From: an uncultured Porphyromonadaceae bacterium | Lineage (GTDB): Bacteria; Bacteroidota; Bacteroidia; Bacteroidales; Muribaculaceae | Reading direction: 5' to 3' | DNA length: 38,963 bases | Assembly: GCA_947176915.1 (NCBI GenBank) | Contig: CAMWSM010000019.1 | Location: 1-38,963 of the forward strand | In this document: positions 16,911 through 38,803 of the stretch, in pieces | Position numbering within the stretch: position 1 is the first letter of the stretch | How the letters are laid out: the number at the start of each line of letters is the position of its first letter | Position numbers and translations under genes: made by a program | The notes under the pieces: generated by a model | Told to the model about the DNA's origin: nothing | Databases searched by the model: none | What the model saw: only the letters and a program-made list of their open reading frames with translations

Positions 16911-17051
16911 TAATGCTTGGGAGGGGATTGCTCCGCAATCCCGCTGCGTCGGCAAATTTACTGAATAAAAAGGATTACCTTCTTATTACGTAGCGGGATT
17001 GCGGAGCAATCCCCTCCCAAGCATTATGGAGCAATCCCCTCCCAAGCATTA
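16911..17051. repeat. 35-bp perfect inverted repeat plus a third partial copy
   Basis: The left arm (16911-16945) and right arm (16992-17026) are exact reverse complements over 35 nt, 46 nt apart. A further 24-nt direct copy of the right arm follows at 17028-17051. Each arm holds its own small hairpin, GGGATTGC-gga-GCAATCCC, and the block TCCCAAGCATTA. It lies 13 nt after the phosphatase stop codon. It is likely a REP pair (BIME-like) that may also act as a terminator; the core differs from the two hairpins next to the RAYT gene. Confidence 0.88.
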
Positions 17052-17210: not shown

Positions 17211-18716
17211 ATGAAAAACGAAGAGAAGGAAGCCGTAAGGCAGGAAAAAATAGAGCAGCTTGCCGCTGCCAAGGCTGATAGCGACAAGGTGATAAATGAA
17301 GCCACAAATTCGGAATATAAGTATGGCTTCACGAGTGACATTGAGACAGAGATTGTGCCTCCCGGTCTTAATGAGGATGTGATACGTTTCATATCAAAGG
17401 TGAAGGATGAGCCTGCATGGTTGCTTGACTTCCGGTTGAAAGCCTTTCGCTACTGGCAGACACTGCCGATGCCTCATTGGGCGCATCTGAATATCCCGGA
17501 GATAGATTATCAGGCAATCTCTTATTATGCGGCTCCCAAGAAGAAGGAGCTTAAGAAGAGTCTTGACGAAGTTGACCCGGAACTAATAAAGACATTCAAT
17601 AAACTCGGCATATCCCTTGAGGAACAGAAGCAGCTTGCAGGAGTGGCGGTGGATGCCGTGATGGATTCTGTAAGCGTAAAGACCACTCACAGGGAGAAGC
17701 TTGCGGAGCTTGGTGTGATTTTCTGTTCATTCTCTGAGGCTGTAAAAGATTATCCGGATCTGGTCAAGAAATATTTAGGGAGTGTGGTTAGCTATAGGGA
17801 TAATTTCTTTGCGGCTCTTAATTCAGCAGTATTTTCCGACGGGTCTTTCGTCTATATTCCTAAGGGTGTCCGTTGCCCTATGGAGTTGAGCACCTATTTC
17901 CGTATCAATGCCTCCGGCACGGGACAGTTTGAACGCACGCTGATAGTGGCTGACGATGATGCCTACGTGAGCTATCTGGAAGGTTGCACCGCCCCTATGC
18001 GTGATGAAAATCAGCTCCATGCCGCCATAGTTGAGATTATCTGCGAGGAGAGGAGCGAAGTGAAATACAGTACGGTGCAAAACTGGTATGCCGGCGATAA
18101 GGAGGGGAAAGGGGGCATCTACAATTTCGTTACTAAACGAGGATTGTGCAGAGGCCATCGTTCAAAAATTTCCTGGACTCAGGTCGAGACTGGCTCTGCA
18201 ATTACGTGGAAGTATCCTTCCTGCATATTGAAGGGGGATGAAAGTGTGGGAGAGTTTTATTCAGTAGCTGTAACAAACAACTATCAGCAGGCTGACACCG
18301 GCACGAAGATGATTCATGTGGGACGCAATTCGCGAAGTACGATTGTCAGCAAGGGCATTTCTGCGGGGAAAAGCCAGAATTCCTACCGAGGACTCGTAAG
18401 GGTTGCGGAGAAAGCCACGGGATGCAGAAATTATACTCAATGTGATTCTCTCTTGATGGGTAATGAATGCGGGGCACATACCTTCCCTTATATTGACGTG
18501 AGAAATTCCTCTTCAACGGTGGAGCATGAGGCCACTACCTCCAAAATAAACGAGGAGCAACTTTTCTATTGCCGTCAGCGGGGTATTCCTACCGAAGAGG
18601 CTGTCGCATTGATTGTAAATGGATATGCCAAGGAGGTGATGAATAAGCTTCCGATGGAGTTTGCAGTTGAGGCTCAGAAACTTCTCCAGATAACTCTGGA
18701 GGGGAGTGTGGGGTAG
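17211..18716 (+). CDS. sufB: Fe-S cluster assembly scaffold SufB
   Basis: This 501-residue cytosolic protein is the scaffold on which SufBCD builds iron-sulfur clusters. The N-terminal 35 residues are an extra charged helix; then come [27 protein letters not shown] and [16 protein letters not shown], all close to SufB. The beta-helix core ends with [16 protein letters not shown], the scaffold cysteine in [21 protein letters not shown] with the conserved Glu-His region, and [10 protein letters not shown]. The frame is intact and has its own promoter. sufC and sufD do not follow it as they usually do in Bacteroidetes; the next gene is an IVP-like cassette and then phoH, so the partners must lie elsewhere. 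Confidence 0.96.
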
Positions 18717-18779
18717 AGGCTTTAGGCATTAGGCATTAGGCATTAGGCCGGAGGGGATAGGTGTTAGGGATTAGGGTAG
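18717..18779 (+). repeat. Left heptamer array of the first IVP cassette
   Basis: Directly after the sufB stop codon come TTTAGGC and three ATTAGGC units (18721-18748), then degenerate TTAGGG-like units to 18776. The array is the inverted counterpart of the one at 19169-19202. Confidence 0.9.
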
Positions 18780-18799
18780 ATGATAAATATTTACGTGAA

Positions 18800-19174
18800 A
18801 TGTCCAGTAGCAAATATAAAGATTTAAAGGTATGGGTGAAATCAATAGAATTAGTTGCTGAGGTCTATGATCTTGTAAAATTACTTCCAGGAGAAGAAAG
18901 ATATGGTTTATCAGATCAAATGAGACGGGCAGCTGTTTCTATACCTTCAAATATTGCGGAGGGACATGGAAGACATACTGATAAGGAATTTATCAAATTT
19001 CTTTCCATATCAAGAGGCTCGTTGTTTGAATTGGAAACCCAATTGGAGATATGCCGACGGTTAAACTATATGGATGCATCAACCTTATCCGGAGTTGGAG
19101 AGAAAATTACCGAAATCAGCAAAATGCTAAATAGCTTAATCAGGTATAGAATAAAAAATGAATTGAACACCTAA
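18800..19174 (+). CDS. Four-helix-bundle protein, 23S rRNA IVP-like
   Basis: This 124-residue protein belongs to the four-helix-bundle family known from intervening sequences in 23S rRNA genes (S23/IVP type) and related to the Avd proteins of diversity-generating retroelements. The family marks are KYKDLKVWVKSIELV at the start, SDQMRRAAVSIPSNIAEG in helix 2, and helix 3/4 with FIKFLSISRGSLFELETQLE. I start at the ATG at 18800, matching relatives; an upstream GTG at 18761 lies in the repeats. The stop codon TAA is itself part of the right repeat array. The gene is AT-rich. Its role is unknown; nucleic-acid binding is suggested by the family. No reverse transcriptase or rRNA gene is nearby. Confidence 0.88.
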   Translation: MSSSKYKDLKVWVKSIELVAEVYDLVKLLPGEERYGLSDQMRRAAVSIPSNIAEGHGRHTDKEFIKFLSISRGSLFELETQLEICRRLNYMDASTLSGVGEKITEISKMLNSLIRYRIKNELNT

Positions 19175-19202
19175 GGCCTAAGGCCTAAAGCCTAAAGCCT
19201 AC
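19169..19202 (+). repeat. Right heptamer array of the first IVP cassette
   Basis: CCTAAGG occurs twice and CCTAAAG twice in tandem, then CCTAC. The reverse complement CTTTAGG/CCTTAGG matches the units of the left array. It contains the stop codon of the IVP-like gene and ends 5 nt before phoH. Confidence 0.9.
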
Positions 19203-19207
19203 ATAAC

Positions 19208-20179
19208 ATGAACGAAAGAATAGTAATAATAGATAGAGTTGACCCACAGACTTTCTACGGAGTCAATAATAATAATATCAATCTTATTCGCAATCTCTTC
19301 CCGAAGTTGCGGATGGCTGCTCGCGGCAATGTCATCAAGGTGATAGGAGAGGAGGGAGAAACTGCTGAATTTGAGAGGAAGGTAAAGTTGATCGAGGATT
19401 ATGCTGCCAAGTATAACAAGCTTTCCGAGGATGTCATAATAGATATCGTGAAGGGGGAGCCCCCGAAAGCGGTAAATTCCGAAGGGGTGATAATTTTCGG
19501 ACAATCCGGCAGACCTATATCGCCTCGCAATGCAAATCAGGCGAAGATGGTGAAGAGTTTCTCGCATAATGATCTTACGTTTGCCCTTGGTCCGGCGGGA
19601 ACGGGAAAAACTTATATTGCCATAGCACTCGCTGTCGCAGCTTTGAAAAATAAGACCTGTAAAAGGATAATCCTATCCCGTCCAGCAGTAGAGGCAGGGG
19701 AGAAACTCGGATTTCTTCCGGGAGACATGAAGGATAAAATCGATCCTTATCTTCGTCCGCTCTATGATGCGCTTGAGGATATGATTCCCCAGCTTAAGCT
19801 GAAGGAATATATGGAGAATGACACGATTCAGATTGCTCCGCTGGCTTTTATGCGCGGAAGAACGTTGAATGATGCCGTGATAATCCTTGATGAGGCGCAA
19901 AACACAACCAAGCATCAGATGAAGATGTTCCTCACCCGTCTGGGTGTCAACAGCCGTATGATCATAACGGGAGATGCGACTCAGATTGACCTTCCCCGCA
20001 CGGTTCAGAGCGGTTTGCTTCAGTCGTTGAGAATACTTCGCGGTGTTGAAGGGATCGGAATTATAGAATACGGCAAGAAGGATATAGTTCGTCATCCGCT
20101 TGTGCAGCGTATCGTTGATGCGTACGAAGCACGCGAGAAGAAGGTGGATGAGGAATTCAATAAAGAAATCGAAAATTGA
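19208..20179 (+). CDS. PhoH-like ATPase
   Basis: This 323-residue cytosolic protein is a PhoH-type P-loop NTPase, a family linked to RNA metabolism. An N-terminal KH-like part (about 1-90) includes LFPKLRMAARGNVIKVIGEEG. The Walker A GPAGTGKT is at 128-135 and Walker B with DAVIILDEAQNTT near 220-230; ITGDATQIDLPR follows around 255-265, and the length is normal. The next gene begins one base after its stop codon, so the two are surely co-transcribed. In many bacteria phoH stands next to ybeY; here it does not. Confidence 0.92.
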   Translation: MNERIVIIDRVDPQTFYGVNNNNINLIRNLFPKLRMAARGNVIKVIGEEGETAEFERKVKLIEDYAAKYNKLSEDVIIDIVKGEPPKAVNSEGVIIFGQSGRPISPRNANQAKMVKSFSHNDLTFALGPAGTGKTYIAIALAVAALKNKTCKRIILSRPAVEAGEKLGFLPGDMKDKIDPYLRPLYDALEDMIPQLKLKEYMENDTIQIAPLAFMRGRTLNDAVIILDEAQNTTKHQMKMFLTRLGVNSRMIITGDATQIDLPRTVQSGLLQSLRILRGVEGIGIIEYGKKDIVRHPLVQRIVDAYEAREKKVDEEFNKEIEN

Positions 20180-20180
20180 T

Positions 20181-21326
20181 ATGGCGAAAGTTGGAGATAC
20201 AGTGCGCTTCCTGAGTAGTACAGGGGGCGGAAAGATAACAAGAATAGAGGGGAATATCGCATACGTTGATGAGGATGGCTTCGAGACACCGGTGCTGCTG
20301 AAGGAGGTTGTGGTGGTGCTGCCTGCGGGACATGAACCTAAGCAAAAGAATTCTCGGCTTATGTTCGATCAGTCGGCGTATGACGAGGGGAAGAAGCCTG
20401 CTCCGACACCGAAGCCAACGAAGAGGGAGACAGAGTTGCCTAAACCGCAGCCGGCTCTTCCGATAGAGGAGACTCCTCACGGGGAGCGTCTCAACATCAC
20501 TTTGGCTTTCGAGCCTTCGGATGTCAAGAATCTTGATAAGTCGCGATTCACGGCTGTGATTGTGAACGATTCAAACTATCAGCTTGAGTTTACTTTTCTG
20601 CGCCGTTCAAGCGAGGAGAGAGGCTGGACATTAGTGAATGGAGGAACCGTTCCCCCTAATGAATTGCTTGACCTTGCAGTGCTTACACAAGAGGAGATCT
20701 CGAAGTATGAGCGCATAGTGTTTCAGTGTATTGCTCTCAAGAAGGAGAAGTCCTTCACTTTGCAGGCTCCCGTCAGTGTGATGCGTAATCTGGATCTGAC
20801 AAAGTTTCATAAGTATCATTGTTTCCGTCCGGGATTATATTTCGAGACTCCGGTTATTGAGGTGCCGCTCGTCGTTGATGGTGTCGCAGTGAAGCCTTTG
20901 GAGGTTAATACAGTTGAATTACAGTCGGCTATGCAGGGAGGGAAACCTGATAAAGCCTCTTTGGATGAATTGTCTAACAAGTACAAGGTGGATAAGCGCG
21001 AGAAGAGGAAACAGAATCCGGCGGATAATCCTCATAAACTTTTGCCTCTCATCGAAGTGGATCTTCATATAGGGGAATTAATTGATTCAACGGTCGGAAT
21101 GGAGCCTAAGGATATGCTCGGACTTCAGCTTGACACGGTAAGGAAATATATGAAAGCTAATGCTCTGCGCAAGGGGCAGAAGATAGTTTTCATACATGGA
21201 AAAGGGGAGGGCGTATTGCGGAAGGCAGTGCTTGAACTTCTGAAGAAGGAGTATCCGAAGGCTGAGATTCAGGATGCCTCTTTCCGCGAATACGGATTTG
21301 GCGCAACTCTCGTAACGATAAATTGA
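20181..21326 (+). CDS. DUF2027 and Smr domain protein
   Basis: This is a 381-residue protein starting at the ATG at 20181, one base after the phoH stop; longer readings run back into phoH. The N-terminal part, KVGDTVRFLSSTGGGKITRI and the following VLLKEVVVV, is the DUF2027 type found only in Bacteroidetes. A proline-rich linker (about 65-95) and a beta-rich middle follow. The C-terminal 90 residues form an Smr domain with VDLHIGEL and the HGKGEGVLR loop, the nuclease-like domain of MutS2. Its function is unknown; nicking or RNA cleavage is possible. A short tandem repeat array begins in its stop codon. Confidence 0.9.
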   Translation: MAKVGDTVRFLSSTGGGKITRIEGNIAYVDEDGFETPVLLKEVVVVLPAGHEPKQKNSRLMFDQSAYDEGKKPAPTPKPTKRETELPKPQPALPIEETPHGERLNITLAFEPSDVKNLDKSRFTAVIVNDSNYQLEFTFLRRSSEERGWTLVNGGTVPPNELLDLAVLTQEEISKYERIVFQCIALKKEKSFTLQAPVSVMRNLDLTKFHKYHCFRPGLYFETPVIEVPLVVDGVAVKPLEVNTVELQSAMQGGKPDKASLDELSNKYKVDKREKRKQNPADNPHKLLPLIEVDLHIGELIDSTVGMEPKDMLGLQLDTVRKYMKANALRKGQKIVFIHGKGEGVLRKAVLELLKKEYPKAEIQDASFREYGFGATLVTIN

Positions 21327-21393
21327 AAATTGAAATTTGAAAATTGAAAATTGTGATAGTTGGTTGTGGATAAAGTTTATAAATTGAAAATTG
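21320..21393 (+). repeat. Left AAATTG-type array of the second IVP cassette
   Basis: Tandem units of AAATTGA/AAATTTG type run from 21320 to 21353, starting inside the last codons and the TGA of the DUF2027-Smr gene; another AAATTGAAAATTG lies at 21381-21393. The stretch is the reverse complement of the array at 21784-21815 over at least 20 nt (AAAATTGAAATTTGAAAATT). Confidence 0.88.
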
Positions 21394-21407
21394 TATTCTG
21401 ATTGTGG

Positions 21408-21773
21408 ATGAGAGATAATGTTTTGTATAATAAAAGTCTTAATTTTGCAATCAGAATTGTGAAGTTATATTCTTGTCTTAAAGATAGGGGTGAATATATC
21501 ATGTCTAAGCAAATAATGCGTAGTGGAACAAGTATTGGGGCGAATATTACCGAGGCGTTAGATGCTCAGAGTGGTATGGATTTCGTATCAAAACTATCGA
21601 TTGCTCTAAAAGAATGTAAGGAAACACGATATTGGCTTACATTACTTCATAGAGTAGGGATTCTTTATGGGAAAGAATATGATTCTTTAGATAAGGATGC
21701 GTCTGAATTAAATGCTCTTTTGGTTTCAATTATAAAAACCAAGAAGAGAAATTTGATGACTAAGGGGAAATAA
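21408..21773 (+). CDS. Four-helix-bundle protein, 23S rRNA IVP-like (second subtype)
   Basis: This 121-residue protein is a second member of the four-helix-bundle family, in a different branch from the one at 18800. Marks are MRDNVLYNKSLNFAIRIVKLY at the start, SKQIMRSGTSIGANI in helix 2 and DFVSKLSIALKECKETRYWL in helix 3. The ATG at 21408 matches relatives; a TTG at 21402 is the only earlier in-frame alternative. It sits between inverted arrays of AAATTG-type repeats, while the first member lies between TTAGGC-type arrays. AT-rich composition and lack of relation to its neighbours suggest acquisition. Function unknown. Confidence 0.88.
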   Translation: MRDNVLYNKSLNFAIRIVKLYSCLKDRGEYIMSKQIMRSGTSIGANITEALDAQSGMDFVSKLSIALKECKETRYWLTLLHRVGILYGKEYDSLDKDASELNALLVSIIKTKKRNLMTKGK

Positions 21774-21783
21774 TAAGTATTAT

Positions 21784-21815
21784 AATTTTCAAATTTCAAT
21801 TTTCAAAATTCAATT
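21784..21815 (+). repeat. Right AAATTG-type array (inverted) of the second IVP cassette
   Basis: AATTTTCAAATTTCAATTTT and the following CAAAATTCAATT are inverted relative to the left array. It ends 5 nt before the DUF695 gene. Confidence 0.88.
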
Positions 21816-22277: not shown

Positions 22278-24716
22278 ATGGTAAAAAACTATCTTACGTT
22301 ATGGATGATGCTTTTGGCCGTCGTGCTCGGAATAGGCACAGCCAAAGCAGAGGGTCTGACTGTAGAACTATCTTCATCATGGGGCTCGAATATCGTGCGT
22401 CTTGATAAAGATGTGAAATTCAGGGCACAGGCCAATCAGGAAGCTGATCTTCGTATCACAGTGAATGACACTGAAATTGTGAATCAAAAGAATGTAGCAG
22501 CTAATACGAAAGTGGAGGGTGTTTTCACATTCTCAACAACGGGTGATTTCACCGTTACGGCTTATGCTACAGCTAATGGAGAAACAGTAAGCAGCACGGC
22601 ATTTTATTGTGTGCCTACCGTTTCTCAACCGGCATCTTCACAGACTGTTCCCCCGATGGGAGCATTCCGTAACGCAGACGGAACAGTAACATTCTGTTTC
22701 GCTGCTCCGGAGAAAGAGACAGTGATTCTCGTGGGTTCCTGGAATGATTATAAGGTTTCGCAGGCTGCCGTGATGGATTATGTTGACGGTCCGGCAGACG
22801 GAGAGGGTTCTTTCCGTTATTTCACCAAGACAGTGAGCGGTGTTCCGGTGAACGAACCGGTGCTTTACTATTATATGGTAAACAACGGCACAAGTTATAA
22901 GAACGTCGGTGATCCTTACGCACGTCTTGTCCTGGATCCAAATAATGACAAATGGATTTCTCCCGAAGTATATCCCGATATGCCTGCATATCCTGAGGAT
23001 AAGGTAAAGAATGTATGTCTTGCCGTGTTCCAGGATAACTTCGGTGAGTATGAATGGAAAGTAAAGGATTTCAAGGGTGCTCCTAAGGATGATCTCGTAA
23101 TCTATGAACTTCTTTTCCGCGATTTCACAGGAACTGAAGGGAAGGCACTCGGCGATGGCACCGTGCGCAAGGCAATAGGGAAAATACCTTATCTTAAATC
23201 CTTAGGCATCAACGCGGTGGAGCTTCTTCCTATCAATGAATTCGACGGTAACCTTTCATGGGGTTATAATCCTAACTTCTATTTCGCAATAGATAAGGCT
23301 TACGGTACAGCTCAGGATTATAAGGAATTTATCGACATCTGCCATGAAAACGGCATTGCAGTCATTCTTGACGTAGTATTCAATCAGAGCGCCGGACTGC
23401 ATCCGTGGTATCAGCTCTATGCAGTAGGCAGCAATCCTTTCTACAATAAGGAGGCCCCACATGCCTACAGTGTGTTGAACGACTGGAAGCAGGAATATCC
23501 TCTTGTGCAGCAGCAATGGCACGATATGCTCAAATATTGGCTGACGGAGTATAAGGTAGATGGTTTCCGTTTTGACCTCGTGAAAGGTCTTGGCGATAAC
23601 AGTTCATACGCCGGCTCAGGAAGTTTAGACAGCCGAACTAACAGGTTTAATCAAAGCCGTGTCAATCGTATGAAGCGTCTGCATGATGCTATGCGCGAGG
23701 TGAACCCTGATGCATATTTCATCAATGAGCTTCTCGGAGATGCCAAGGAGGAGAATGAGATGGCTACCGATGGTGAGCTCAACTGGTTTAACAACAATTA
23801 TAACGGTTGTGAGTTTGCTATGGGCTGGAAGAGCAACCTTAACACTATGTGGGCACCCAAAGCAAGTCGCAGTGTGGGCTCAACTGTTTCCTATCTTGAA
23901 AGTCATGATGAGGAGCGTCTTGCCTACAAACAGGACATGTATGGTGTAGAAGGTATTATCAAAGGTAATCGTGAGAATTCCTGTTTCCGTCTTGCCGGGG
24001 CTGCCGTACAGATGCTTATGGTGCCGGGCTCACACATGATCTGGCAGTTCTCCGAGATGGGTAACGCTCAGAGCACTAAAAAGGGTTCGGACAATGACAC
24101 AGGCAATAAGATTGTGAATTGGGCACTCATGGATAATCCTGCCAACGGTGGTTTGGTTGACCGTTATCGTGAATTGATCCATATCCGTCTTGCAAACCCC
24201 GAGTTATTCGGTCCGGATGCAGACTATAGCCTCAATTTCAATTCGCCTTATAATTATCCGTCGTCTACTCCAAAGAATCTGCTATATGCCACATCATTCT
24301 ATGGTAATAAGGAACTCTATGTGTTGATAAACTCAAGTGTAAACACTCAACTTACCTCTACAGTGGCTTTCCGCAGCGATAATGCTTCGGATTATCAGAT
24401 ACTGTCCAACTGGGGAGCTACTGATCCGGTGATCGACTATGCAAATAAGACAGTAACTCTTCCTGCTAACGGATATGTTGTTATTGCCAACAAGAGCGTT
24501 GAGTCAAGTGTTGGAAGTGTTGTTGGGGATTCTGCTGATTGGGGCGTATATTGCAATGGCGGCTCACTTTACGTGGTGAATGCCTCTTCTCCGGTTGATG
24601 TATGGAATGCAGCGGGAATGAAGGTCGCTCATGGTGAAGGTAATTTCAATGTTTCATTGCCTTCCGGTCTCTACATTGTAAATTGCGGAGGAAAGAGCGT
24701 TAAGGTGAGGCTGTAG
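22278..24716 (+). CDS. Secreted GH13 alpha-amylase
   Basis: This 812-residue extracellular enzyme hydrolyses alpha-1,4-glucans. A signal peptide (to about residue 24), a beta domain (25-110) and a CBM48-like module with VILVGSWNDYKVS (about 145-165) precede the TIM barrel. Barrel motifs are DVVFNQ (365-370), GFRFD with nucleophile D433, FINELLGD with acid/base E484, and ESHDEE with transition-state aspartate D544. Region I has Gln where most GH13 enzymes have His. The last 70 residues, with VDVWNAAGMKVAHGEG and LPSGLYIVNCGGKSVKVRL, look like a type IX secretion sorting tail. It probably makes maltooligosaccharides that the SusCD-like system at 5.4 kb imports. The stop codon TAG lies in a repeat array. 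Confidence 0.93.
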   Translation: MVKNYLTLWMMLLAVVLGIGTAKAEGLTVELSSSWGSNIVRLDKDVKFRAQANQEADLRITVNDTEIVNQKNVAANTKVEGVFTFSTTGDFTVTAYATANGETVSSTAFYCVPTVSQPASSQTVPPMGAFRNADGTVTFCFAAPEKETVILVGSWNDYKVSQAAVMDYVDGPADGEGSFRYFTKTVSGVPVNEPVLYYYMVNNGTSYKNVGDPYARLVLDPNNDKWISPEVYPDMPAYPEDKVKNVCLAVFQDNFGEYEWKVKDFKGAPKDDLVIYELLFRDFTGTEGKALGDGTVRKAIGKIPYLKSLGINAVELLPINEFDGNLSWGYNPNFYFAIDKAYGTAQDYKEFIDICHENGIAVILDVVFNQSAGLHPWYQLYAVGSNPFYNKEAPHAYSVLNDWKQEYPLVQQQWHDMLKYWLTEYKVDGFRFDLVKGLGDNSSYAGSGSLDSRTNRFNQSRVNRMKRLHDAMREVNPDAYFINELLGDAKEENEMATDGELNWFNNNYNGCEFAMGWKSNLNTMWAPKASRSVGSTVSYLESHDEERLAYKQDMYGVEGIIKGNRENSCFRLAGAAVQMLMVPGSHMIWQFSEMGNAQSTKKGSDNDTGNKIVNWALMDNPANGGLVDRYRELIHIRLANPELFGPDADYSLNFNSPYNYPSSTPKNLLYATSFYGNKELYVLINSSVNTQLTSTVAFRSDNASDYQILSNWGATDPVIDYANKTVTLPANGYVVIANKSVESSVGSVVGDSADWGVYCNGGSLYVVNASSPVDVWNAAGMKVAHGEGNFNVSLPSGLYIVNCGGKSVKVRL

Positions 24717-24762
24717 GCTTTAGGTATTAGGCATTAGGCTTAAGGCCCGAGGTATTAGGTAC
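24713..24762 (+). repeat. Left array of an empty inverted heptamer pair
   Basis: TTTAGGT, ATTAGGC and ATTAGGC-like units run from the amylase stop codon, which is part of the sequence GTAGGCTTTAGG, to 24762. They are of the same type as those at 18717. The right partner is at 24814-24920. Confidence 0.9.
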
Positions 24763-24770
24763 AAAATAAG

Positions 24771-24806
24771 AGAAGAGGGATTGCAAATTCTTGCAGTCCC
24801 TCTTCT
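24771..24806. terminator. Bidirectional terminator between convergent genes
   Basis: AGAAGAGGGA/TCCCTCTTCT forms a 10-bp stem, with an inner TGCAA/TTGCA stem. It lies between the amylase gene and the convergent minus-strand gene, in the exact middle of the inverted heptamer pair. The minus-strand side has the better T-rich tail. Confidence 0.7.
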
Positions 24807-24813
24807 AATTTAT

Positions 24814-24920
24814 ACCTCGAGCCTAACGCCTAACGCCGAACGCCTCGGGCCTAACGCCTAATACCTAATACCTAACACCTAACACCTAACACCTAATCAC
24901 CTAATCACCTAATACCTAAC
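24814..24920 (+). repeat. Right array of the empty inverted heptamer pair
   Basis: About fifteen units of the CCTAACG, CCTAATA and CCTAACA kind, some extended to CCTAATCA, run over 107 nt and end exactly at the stop codon of the next gene (TTA at 24921-24923). It is longer and more varied than the left array. Confidence 0.9.
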
Positions 24921-38602: not shown

Positions 38603-38674
38603 GGCTTTGCTGAGAATATCGAGAGGGCTATGGTAAGGATTGCTTGGGGCTTTGCTGAGAATATCTAGAGGGCT
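38603..38674 (+). repeat. 27-nt direct repeat downstream of the flippase gene
   Basis: GGCTTTGCTGAGAATATC plus GAGAGGGCT at 38603-38629 recurs at 38648-38674 with one change (G to T). The unit spacing is 45 nt. The rest of 38574-38889 is AT-rich with no other features that I see except the tRNA promoter and a short hairpin CGCTG/CAGCG before the tRNA. Confidence 0.8.
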
Positions 38675-38803
38675 TTGGGATAATCATAGTCTGTTTTATT
38701 TTGGCCTATTCAAAACTATGGAATAAAATGTGTTTTGTAAATTATTGATTAGTAGATATATAAAACAAAACAGGCTAAAACGATTAAAAAAAGTGAGAAA
38801 ATA

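Follow-up and report, generated by a model that had tools for sequence, protein, structure and literature searches.

Inverted heptamer arrays enclose intergenic IVP genes and may mark a small mobile element of bacteria and archaea

The question raised by the locus described here is what a gene for a 23S rRNA-intervening sequence protein (S23p, or IVP) is doing between two protein-coding genes, and whether the short repeats on either side belong to it. S23p/IVP is known until now mainly from the intervening sequences (IVS) of 23S rRNA and has been crystallised as a pentamer. The locus lies in a stretch of 38,963 nt from an uncultured bacterium of the Muribaculaceae (hereafter the window, its genome being referred to as G000), where it fills the gap between sufB and phoH.

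The stop codon of sufB, a TAG, ends at 18716 and is followed directly by a left (5') array of ATTAGGC-type heptamers (18717 to 18779, forward strand), of which the part from 18717 to 18748 is scored by TRF as 4.6 copies with a 96% match and in which the dinucleotide AG recurs at an exact 7-nt spacing through nine units, from 18717 to 18774. The IVP gene on the same strand (18800 to 19174, 124 aa), recognised as a four-helix bundle from profile matches (PF05635, TIGR02436) and an AlphaFold model, begins with an ATG at 18800 and has its stop codon, a TAA at 19174, within the right (3') array. The latter consists of CCTAAGG/CCTAAAG units (19170 to 19201, forward strand), is the reverse complement of the left array, has five CT units and stops 6 nt short of the phoH start at 19208, such that array, gene and array together fill the space between sufB and phoH. 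The two arrays are complementary at 90% over 31 nt, and the unit, read as RNA, folds with its arrays paired; the computed RNA duplex of the arrays is -47.2 kcal/mol, that of a second unit in the window (see below) is -33.3 kcal/mol, and crossing the arrays of the first unit with those of the second yields only -5.7 and -8.3 kcal/mol. The preliminary description of this DNA had drawn a 124-residue four-helix-bundle gene between two mutually reverse-complementary arrays, the left one beginning right after the sufB stop and the right one holding the IVP stop and ending near phoH, and all of this stands. Its comparison of the ends to telomeres reflects a resemblance only, of one among many unit sequences, and the analogy was dropped because TTAGGC is just one of dozens of these.

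The protein matches PF05635 (23S rRNA-intervening sequence protein) over its full length with 141 bits against a cut-off of 33.8 (E=1.9e-41, the search having used the longer ORF, from 18761) and TIGR02436 with an E-value of 2.7e-40. Its AlphaFold model has a pLDDT of 95, and the closest structures are 2gsc (44% identity) and 2rld (about 30%), each of which contains five chains in the PDB; for the Xanthomonas protein, PMC4990558 describes a homopentamer of toroidal shape. Weaker structural matches are to Avd of the diversity-generating retroelements (DGRs; 4dwl, 8ube, 8ub7), which has the same fold at 11% identity, and a homology between Avd and PF05635 has been noted (PMC10053308). The link to Avd in sequence is weak, with 29.1 bits against a cut-off of 80 for the DGR Avd equivalog NF033474 and a match to PF22296 that also falls below its cut-off, and the window unit differs from the DGR setting in having one ORF. 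Searches of the IVPs of the window against Pfam and NCBIfam gave no transposase or recombinase, the matches being to IVP/Avd-type families plus one weak match to TLE_N.

The build of the sufB–phoH unit recurs within the window. A second unit (21320 to 21815), following a gene that we take to be MutS2/Smr-like, has the same layout with a different heptamer: a left array of AAATTGA units found by tandem-repeat search (21320 to 21353, forward strand), an IVP gene on the forward strand (21408 to 21773, from the ATG at 21408, the ORF being listed from a TTG at 21402; PF05635, 96.4 bits, E=1.4e-27) and a right array of TTTCAAA-type units (21784 to 21815, forward strand) that is the reverse complement of the left. 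Six PF05635 matches were found in G000, three of them above the family cut-off, namely the two of the window and one on another contig, C133. This third gene is flanked by a GAGAATA heptamer array and, opposite it, by a weak one, and presumably lies between ExbB/TolQ-like and ExbD-like genes. The window also holds a convergent array pair without a gene (TTAGGYA ... CCTAACA, 24708 to 24920, unstranded), which encloses a terminator-like hairpin and is an IVP-less relative of the unit ends. Other repeats of the window are an inverted 9-mer array at 225–274 (GTCAGACCA / TGGTCTGAC), resembling an array beside a weak IVP match on contig C18, an exact 25-nt tandem duplication at 17003–17051 and, at 38603–38677, a 23-nt unit tandemly repeated in 3.3 copies.

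Whether such ends are a general property of IVP genes was assessed by aligning the 150 nt 5' of each start codon to the reverse complement of the 3' flank. Within the genus of the window, 84 IVP genes (E<=1e-10) occur in 46 of 111 genomes, and 78 of the 84 loci were scored, six being left out owing to a missing stop codon or a flank that ran into a contig end or Ns. The median score of a locus's own pair of flanks is 41, as compared with 16 for pairs across loci (95% at 27, 99% at 40) and 19 for own pairs aligned directly rather than reverse-complemented. A score of at least 30 was reached by 59/78 IVP genes and by 2/299 control genes (Mann–Whitney U, p=2.6e-40), the controls, with a median of 16, being ORF-called genes from 382 kb of seven genomes of the genus, some stretches of which had been picked for holding arrays. 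One control, L184, which we take to be a DUF2461-like gene, likewise lies between inverted arrays. By eye, the letters of the units vary from locus to locus while both sides of one locus agree, and the own pair is the best of its row in 41/78 loci. The situation that the preliminary description named as speaking against a cassette, with most IVP-like genes devoid of inverted flanking arrays, does not hold in the genus.

Beyond the genus, PF05635 was found in 147 of the 198 genomes of a phylum sample, with up to 15 copies per genome. Named genomes were also scanned with the IVP of the window, and the best 80 of 519 confirmed stretches, to which the set was limited, come from Bacteroidota, Clostridia, Spirochaetota, Chloroflexi, Desulfobacterota, Pseudomonadota, Planctomycetota, Acidobacteria, Gracilibacteria, archaea and others (phyla assigned by us from record titles), a few of them being Muribaculaceae and perhaps near kin of the window. 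Two of the 80 were dropped for Ns or a contig end, and six of the 78 scorable loci duplicate loci of the genus; among the 72 further loci that remain from these best 80, the score is at least 30 in 45 and at least 25 in 52. The corresponding figures for the phylum sample, taken from its best-scoring matches only, are 11/29 and 17/29. Gene and arrays as one unit, as first proposed for the window, is well supported by the genus and by the further loci, though by a smaller share of the phylum sample. The genes on either side both run in the direction of the IVP gene in 46/74, 48/73 and 23/29 loci of three sets, and Rfam gave no matches in 20 IVP loci outside the window, none of which is in rRNA.

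The sufB–phoH junction itself was compared in a sample of 61 genomes, of which 51 have phoH; 50 loci were compared and the gap was placed in 49, that of L064 containing Ns. An IVP gene is present at this junction in 2/49, namely in G000 and G027, and two more carriers, G106 and G072, were picked out by eye from the genus survey. These four carriers have three types of unit (TTAGGCA; GGCTCAA, in two genomes; and one GATTGGG-like), and their arrays score 41–60 within a locus, 13–21 between types and 51–56 between the two genomes that share a unit. Between G000 and G027 the neighbouring genes are 93% alike but the IVPs only 58.5%, which indicates either a fast-evolving gene or a site that was filled more than once. 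The preliminary description had held that finding the gene at a shared site but with differing arrays would speak against a cassette, and this situation does occur in the four genomes; since the arrays match each other in each carrier, differing arrays are not taken to refute the unit. Relatives at the same locus mostly inherit their arrays, own pairs scoring above cross pairs in 20/41, and a general compensatory change at the same locus is accordingly not borne out. A determination of the unit letters by IVP clade was also considered and set aside, as the Mantel correlation (r=0.235, p=0.001) is carried by pairs of more than 60% identity. Several sufB–phoH sites without an IVP gene are occupied by other arrays, and in other species (L039, L043) longer, seemingly palindromic repeats of about 40 nt fill the junction.

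In another genus, 4/8 genomes carry an IVP unit behind phoH (the gene being named from sequence), and two of the genomes without the unit have flanks that are 90–94% identical and, in its place, 60 nt with a degenerate AG array. When one carrier, L204, is compared by eye with the empty sites L350 and L351, the gene that follows phoH seems to take its start codon and first codons from the right array; with the array supplying the start codon, the downstream protein would differ at its N-terminus from that of the empty relatives.

Similar units are also found in dissimilar surroundings. There are 71 pairs of IVP ORFs with at least 75% nucleotide identity, six of them the same locus twice, and in 21 pairs, including some from six ANME and methanogen loci, homology of the flanks in the same orientation is absent; this is an upper count, one of the 21 being a repeat via a duplicate locus, some flanks being cut, and the flanks of L233/L251 and L233/L263 being alike when inverted. 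In the archaeal pair L233/L251 the ORFs are 93% identical and the flanks, once reverse-complemented, match those of the opposite side at 87% and 90%, with switch points that by eye lie at the arrays, and L233/L263 is a second case of inversion in place. The archaeal loci L246, L262 and L233, on the other hand, have ORFs that are 91–92% alike, while their flanks share no homology whichever way they are read. Both the inversion and some of the spread could be accounted for by recombination between arrays. In the clostridial genome G308, inspection of five copies by eye showed no target-site duplication.

The arrays have a length rule of their own. Where a period could be called in the 5' flank it is 7 in 27/36 scan loci (42/78 uncalled) and 32/47 genus loci (31/78 uncalled); a period was called in 1/29 of the phylum-sample 5' flanks and in 3/160 random 150-mers. 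Pairs of AG at lag 7 in the 5' flanks stand at 353 against a median of 72 for other lags in the scan loci, 164 against 53 in the genus and 74 against 31 in the phylum sample, and pairs of CT in the 3' flanks at 298 against 56.5, 167 against 44 and 71 against 21.5, respectively. The opposite dinucleotides in the scan loci are rarer at this lag yet also raised (5' CT 67 against 15, 3' AG 69 against 31.5), CT in the 5' flanks being five times less frequent than AG. To count units, 101 non-duplicate loci of the scan and phylum sample were reduced to 76 clusters by ORF similarity, with one locus each. At exact 7-nt spacing, exactly five AG are present in 26/76 of the 5' arrays and exactly five CT in 26/76 of the 3' arrays, and among the 106 arrays that reach three units or more the length is five in 52, four in 17 and six in 11; with looser spacing (46/128) the excess of five units has a p of 2e-9 against a geometric law. 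The consensus of the unit is T-AG-K-D-D-T (66 arrays). A role of TAG as a stop cassette in all frames was rejected on the base before AG, which in these 66 arrays is T in 46%, G in 23%, C in 17% and A in 14%. The five-unit rule is blurred in the genus of the window, where AG chains of at least three units occur in 37/78 loci, some of them very long, and AG is present in just 22/41 heptamer units; nor are AG arrays more frequent at its high-scoring IVP genes (10/25 as against 23/53). With five AG units at each end and the gene of a five-fold ring beside them, each subunit may bind one unit, for which TRAP, an 11-fold ring that binds NAG triplets, is a precedent.

Ends of this kind also occur without a gene. 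Three successive TTAGGNN units have 120 matches in G000, as compared with none for the backward control, and many of these matches form convergent pairs about 70–145 nt apart. Several gene-less pairs of G000 enclose terminator-like hairpins and several begin at a stop codon, and their inner sequences differ, with no common core by eye; seven such pairs have 5 to 22 units. Within the genus, TTAGGNN arrays are present in 23/111 genomes, in a few no more often than the backward control, and 10 of these 23 have no IVP match (E<=1e-10). A requirement of IVP for these arrays is not borne out, IVP being found in 13/23 genomes with arrays and 33/88 of the others (Fisher, p=0.15, not significant). In 11 other genomes with 1–14 IVP genes each, three successive TTAGNNN units have 3 to 578 matches in nine and none in two, the backward control exceeding the count in G316. 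The 578 matches belong to a genome of 2.3 Mb (G309, the source of locus L220) with a single IVP gene. In most genomes of the comparison there are more array matches than IVP genes.

A gene-less family is seen in the clostridial genome G308. Its gene-less pairs are mutually homologous (for example 322 nt at 81% and about 150 nt at 74–86%) and also homologous to the ends of the IVP unit, a sub-terminal sequence being common to both. A 161-nt query has at least 79 matches on both strands, with 40 of 113 candidates scored; leaving out opposite-strand repeats and merging 49 intervals gave 39 sites, a number of which are short partial matches. Two of the 39 have an IVP gene, one of these being matched on one side only, and the ends of this family are absent from 4/6 of the G308 IVP genes. 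Among 12 gene-less pairs from the clostridial genomes G308 and G314, chosen for a pattern match in both arms, exactly five AG are found in 8/12 and exactly five CT in 11/12, and four IVP units of such genomes have AG/CT counts of 6/5, 5/5, 12/10 and 4/5.

Several known systems resemble these units in part. One is the 23S rRNA IVS, which shares the protein family, a size of about 430–490 nt and mutually complementary ends whose stem encloses the ORF; the Coxiella IVS is described as 428 nt long, with a terminal stem of 28 bp whose loop carries S23p and with excision by RNase III, and the same article cites the proposal of Ralph and McClelland that the ORF serves mobility (PMC4990558). In CPR bacteria, IVP ORFs are described as scattered across rRNA insertion sites (PMC11270868). 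The window unit differs in lying between protein genes rather than inside an rRNA gene, and the units here differ in their heptamer-array ends, the AG phase of most scan loci and gene-less relatives. REPIN/RAYT systems also combine a single small gene and short inverted repeats with dispersed gene-less doublets, which here are seen in G308, but as described in PMC3116915 their gene is a Y1 (HUH) tyrosine transposase in place of a four-helix-bundle IVP, and the ends here are heptamer arrays. Like transposons and their MITEs, the dispersed copies of G308 share terminal inverted repeats, whereas inner parts are not shared in G000. TAACTGA heptamers, described between genes of Beggiatoaceae, cyanobacteria and some Bacteroidetes, are likewise seven-base tandem units; unlike the present arrays they are direct, have one fixed unit and lie mostly before start codons, and the parts of that article drawn on here report neither a link to IVP nor inverted pairing (PMC4679880). 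The constant-size tandem repeats of Bacillus, at 20–21 or 52 nt according to PMC8161180, were set aside as a separate matter. No earlier report of IVP genes with repeat or inverted ends was found in the open-licence literature, in agreement with the preliminary description, and the repeat-ended IVP element is, as far as could be found, apparently undescribed so far.

Our preferred reading, to which we give a probability of about 0.6, is that a small selfish element, resident in intergenic gaps and often inside operons, carries the IVP genes of this family. The ends of the element would be the inverted arrays of short units, typically five NAGNNNN 5' and their reverse complement 3', and these would most likely be read by IVP, a homopentamer in a solved homologue, with each subunit taking one AG unit. 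MITE-like copies that share these ends but lack IVP would depend or have depended on IVP in trans. In RNA, the paired arrays would form a stem enclosing the IVP frame, as in the 23S rRNA IVS, which would let RNase III or a similar enzyme cut the unit from the transcript of the host operon. The minimal mobile cassette of the preliminary description holds in this sense as a good working model, for a larger family, given the presence and absence of units, their occurrence at unrelated loci and the flip; its mobility is read from distribution, with no target duplication seen and no known transposase in the unit. A wider version, which is tentative and in our opinion doubtful, is that IVP units are an unrecognised mobile DNA of both domains in which the pentamer reads exactly five NAG heptamers and drives its own spread and that of gene-less MITEs, the 23S IVS being a special case. 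That such a ring would do so without a known nuclease or recombinase motif is a part of this version that we hold with equal reserve.

The arrays might instead be general intergenic repeats, produced by slippage and hairpin template switching, with IVP genes as passengers that settle in array pairs or are swapped between them by recombination. The excess of arrays over IVP genes in most genomes and their presence in genomes without a detected IVP are in keeping with this, as are the terminator-like hairpins in several G000 pairs, the control gene between inverted arrays and the degenerate array retained at a related 'empty' site. Repeats of that kind would not single out IVP genes as is seen in the genus, and again in loci of many phyla, and neither the five-unit peak nor the shared sub-terminal sequence of G308 is expected from free slippage; we think this explanation rather unlikely. 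Alternatively, the arrays could be selected for an RNA stem only, the unit being an IVS at the transcript level from which RNase III frees the IVP message, with no movement by its own protein. The strong stems and weak crossed duplexes of the two window units, the Coxiella precedent and the co-directional neighbours all suit such a role, but a stem needs neither the 7-nt AG period nor five units, both of which the gene-less copies have, and the unit of archaeal L233/L251 persists in either orientation with respect to the adjacent genes, leaving this in our view improbable. Chance or an assembly artefact is barely credible: assembly of short arrays is difficult and these draft genomes contain many of them, but the comparisons with mismatched loci and control genes refute it, and the arrays recur in independently assembled genomes of other phyla, with the backward pattern at 0 against 120 in G000.

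If the selfish-element reading is true, it would explain why IVP genes are found in both rRNA loops and intergenic gaps, would indicate where some intergenic heptamer arrays of Bacteroidota and Clostridia come from, and would add a kind of mobile DNA.
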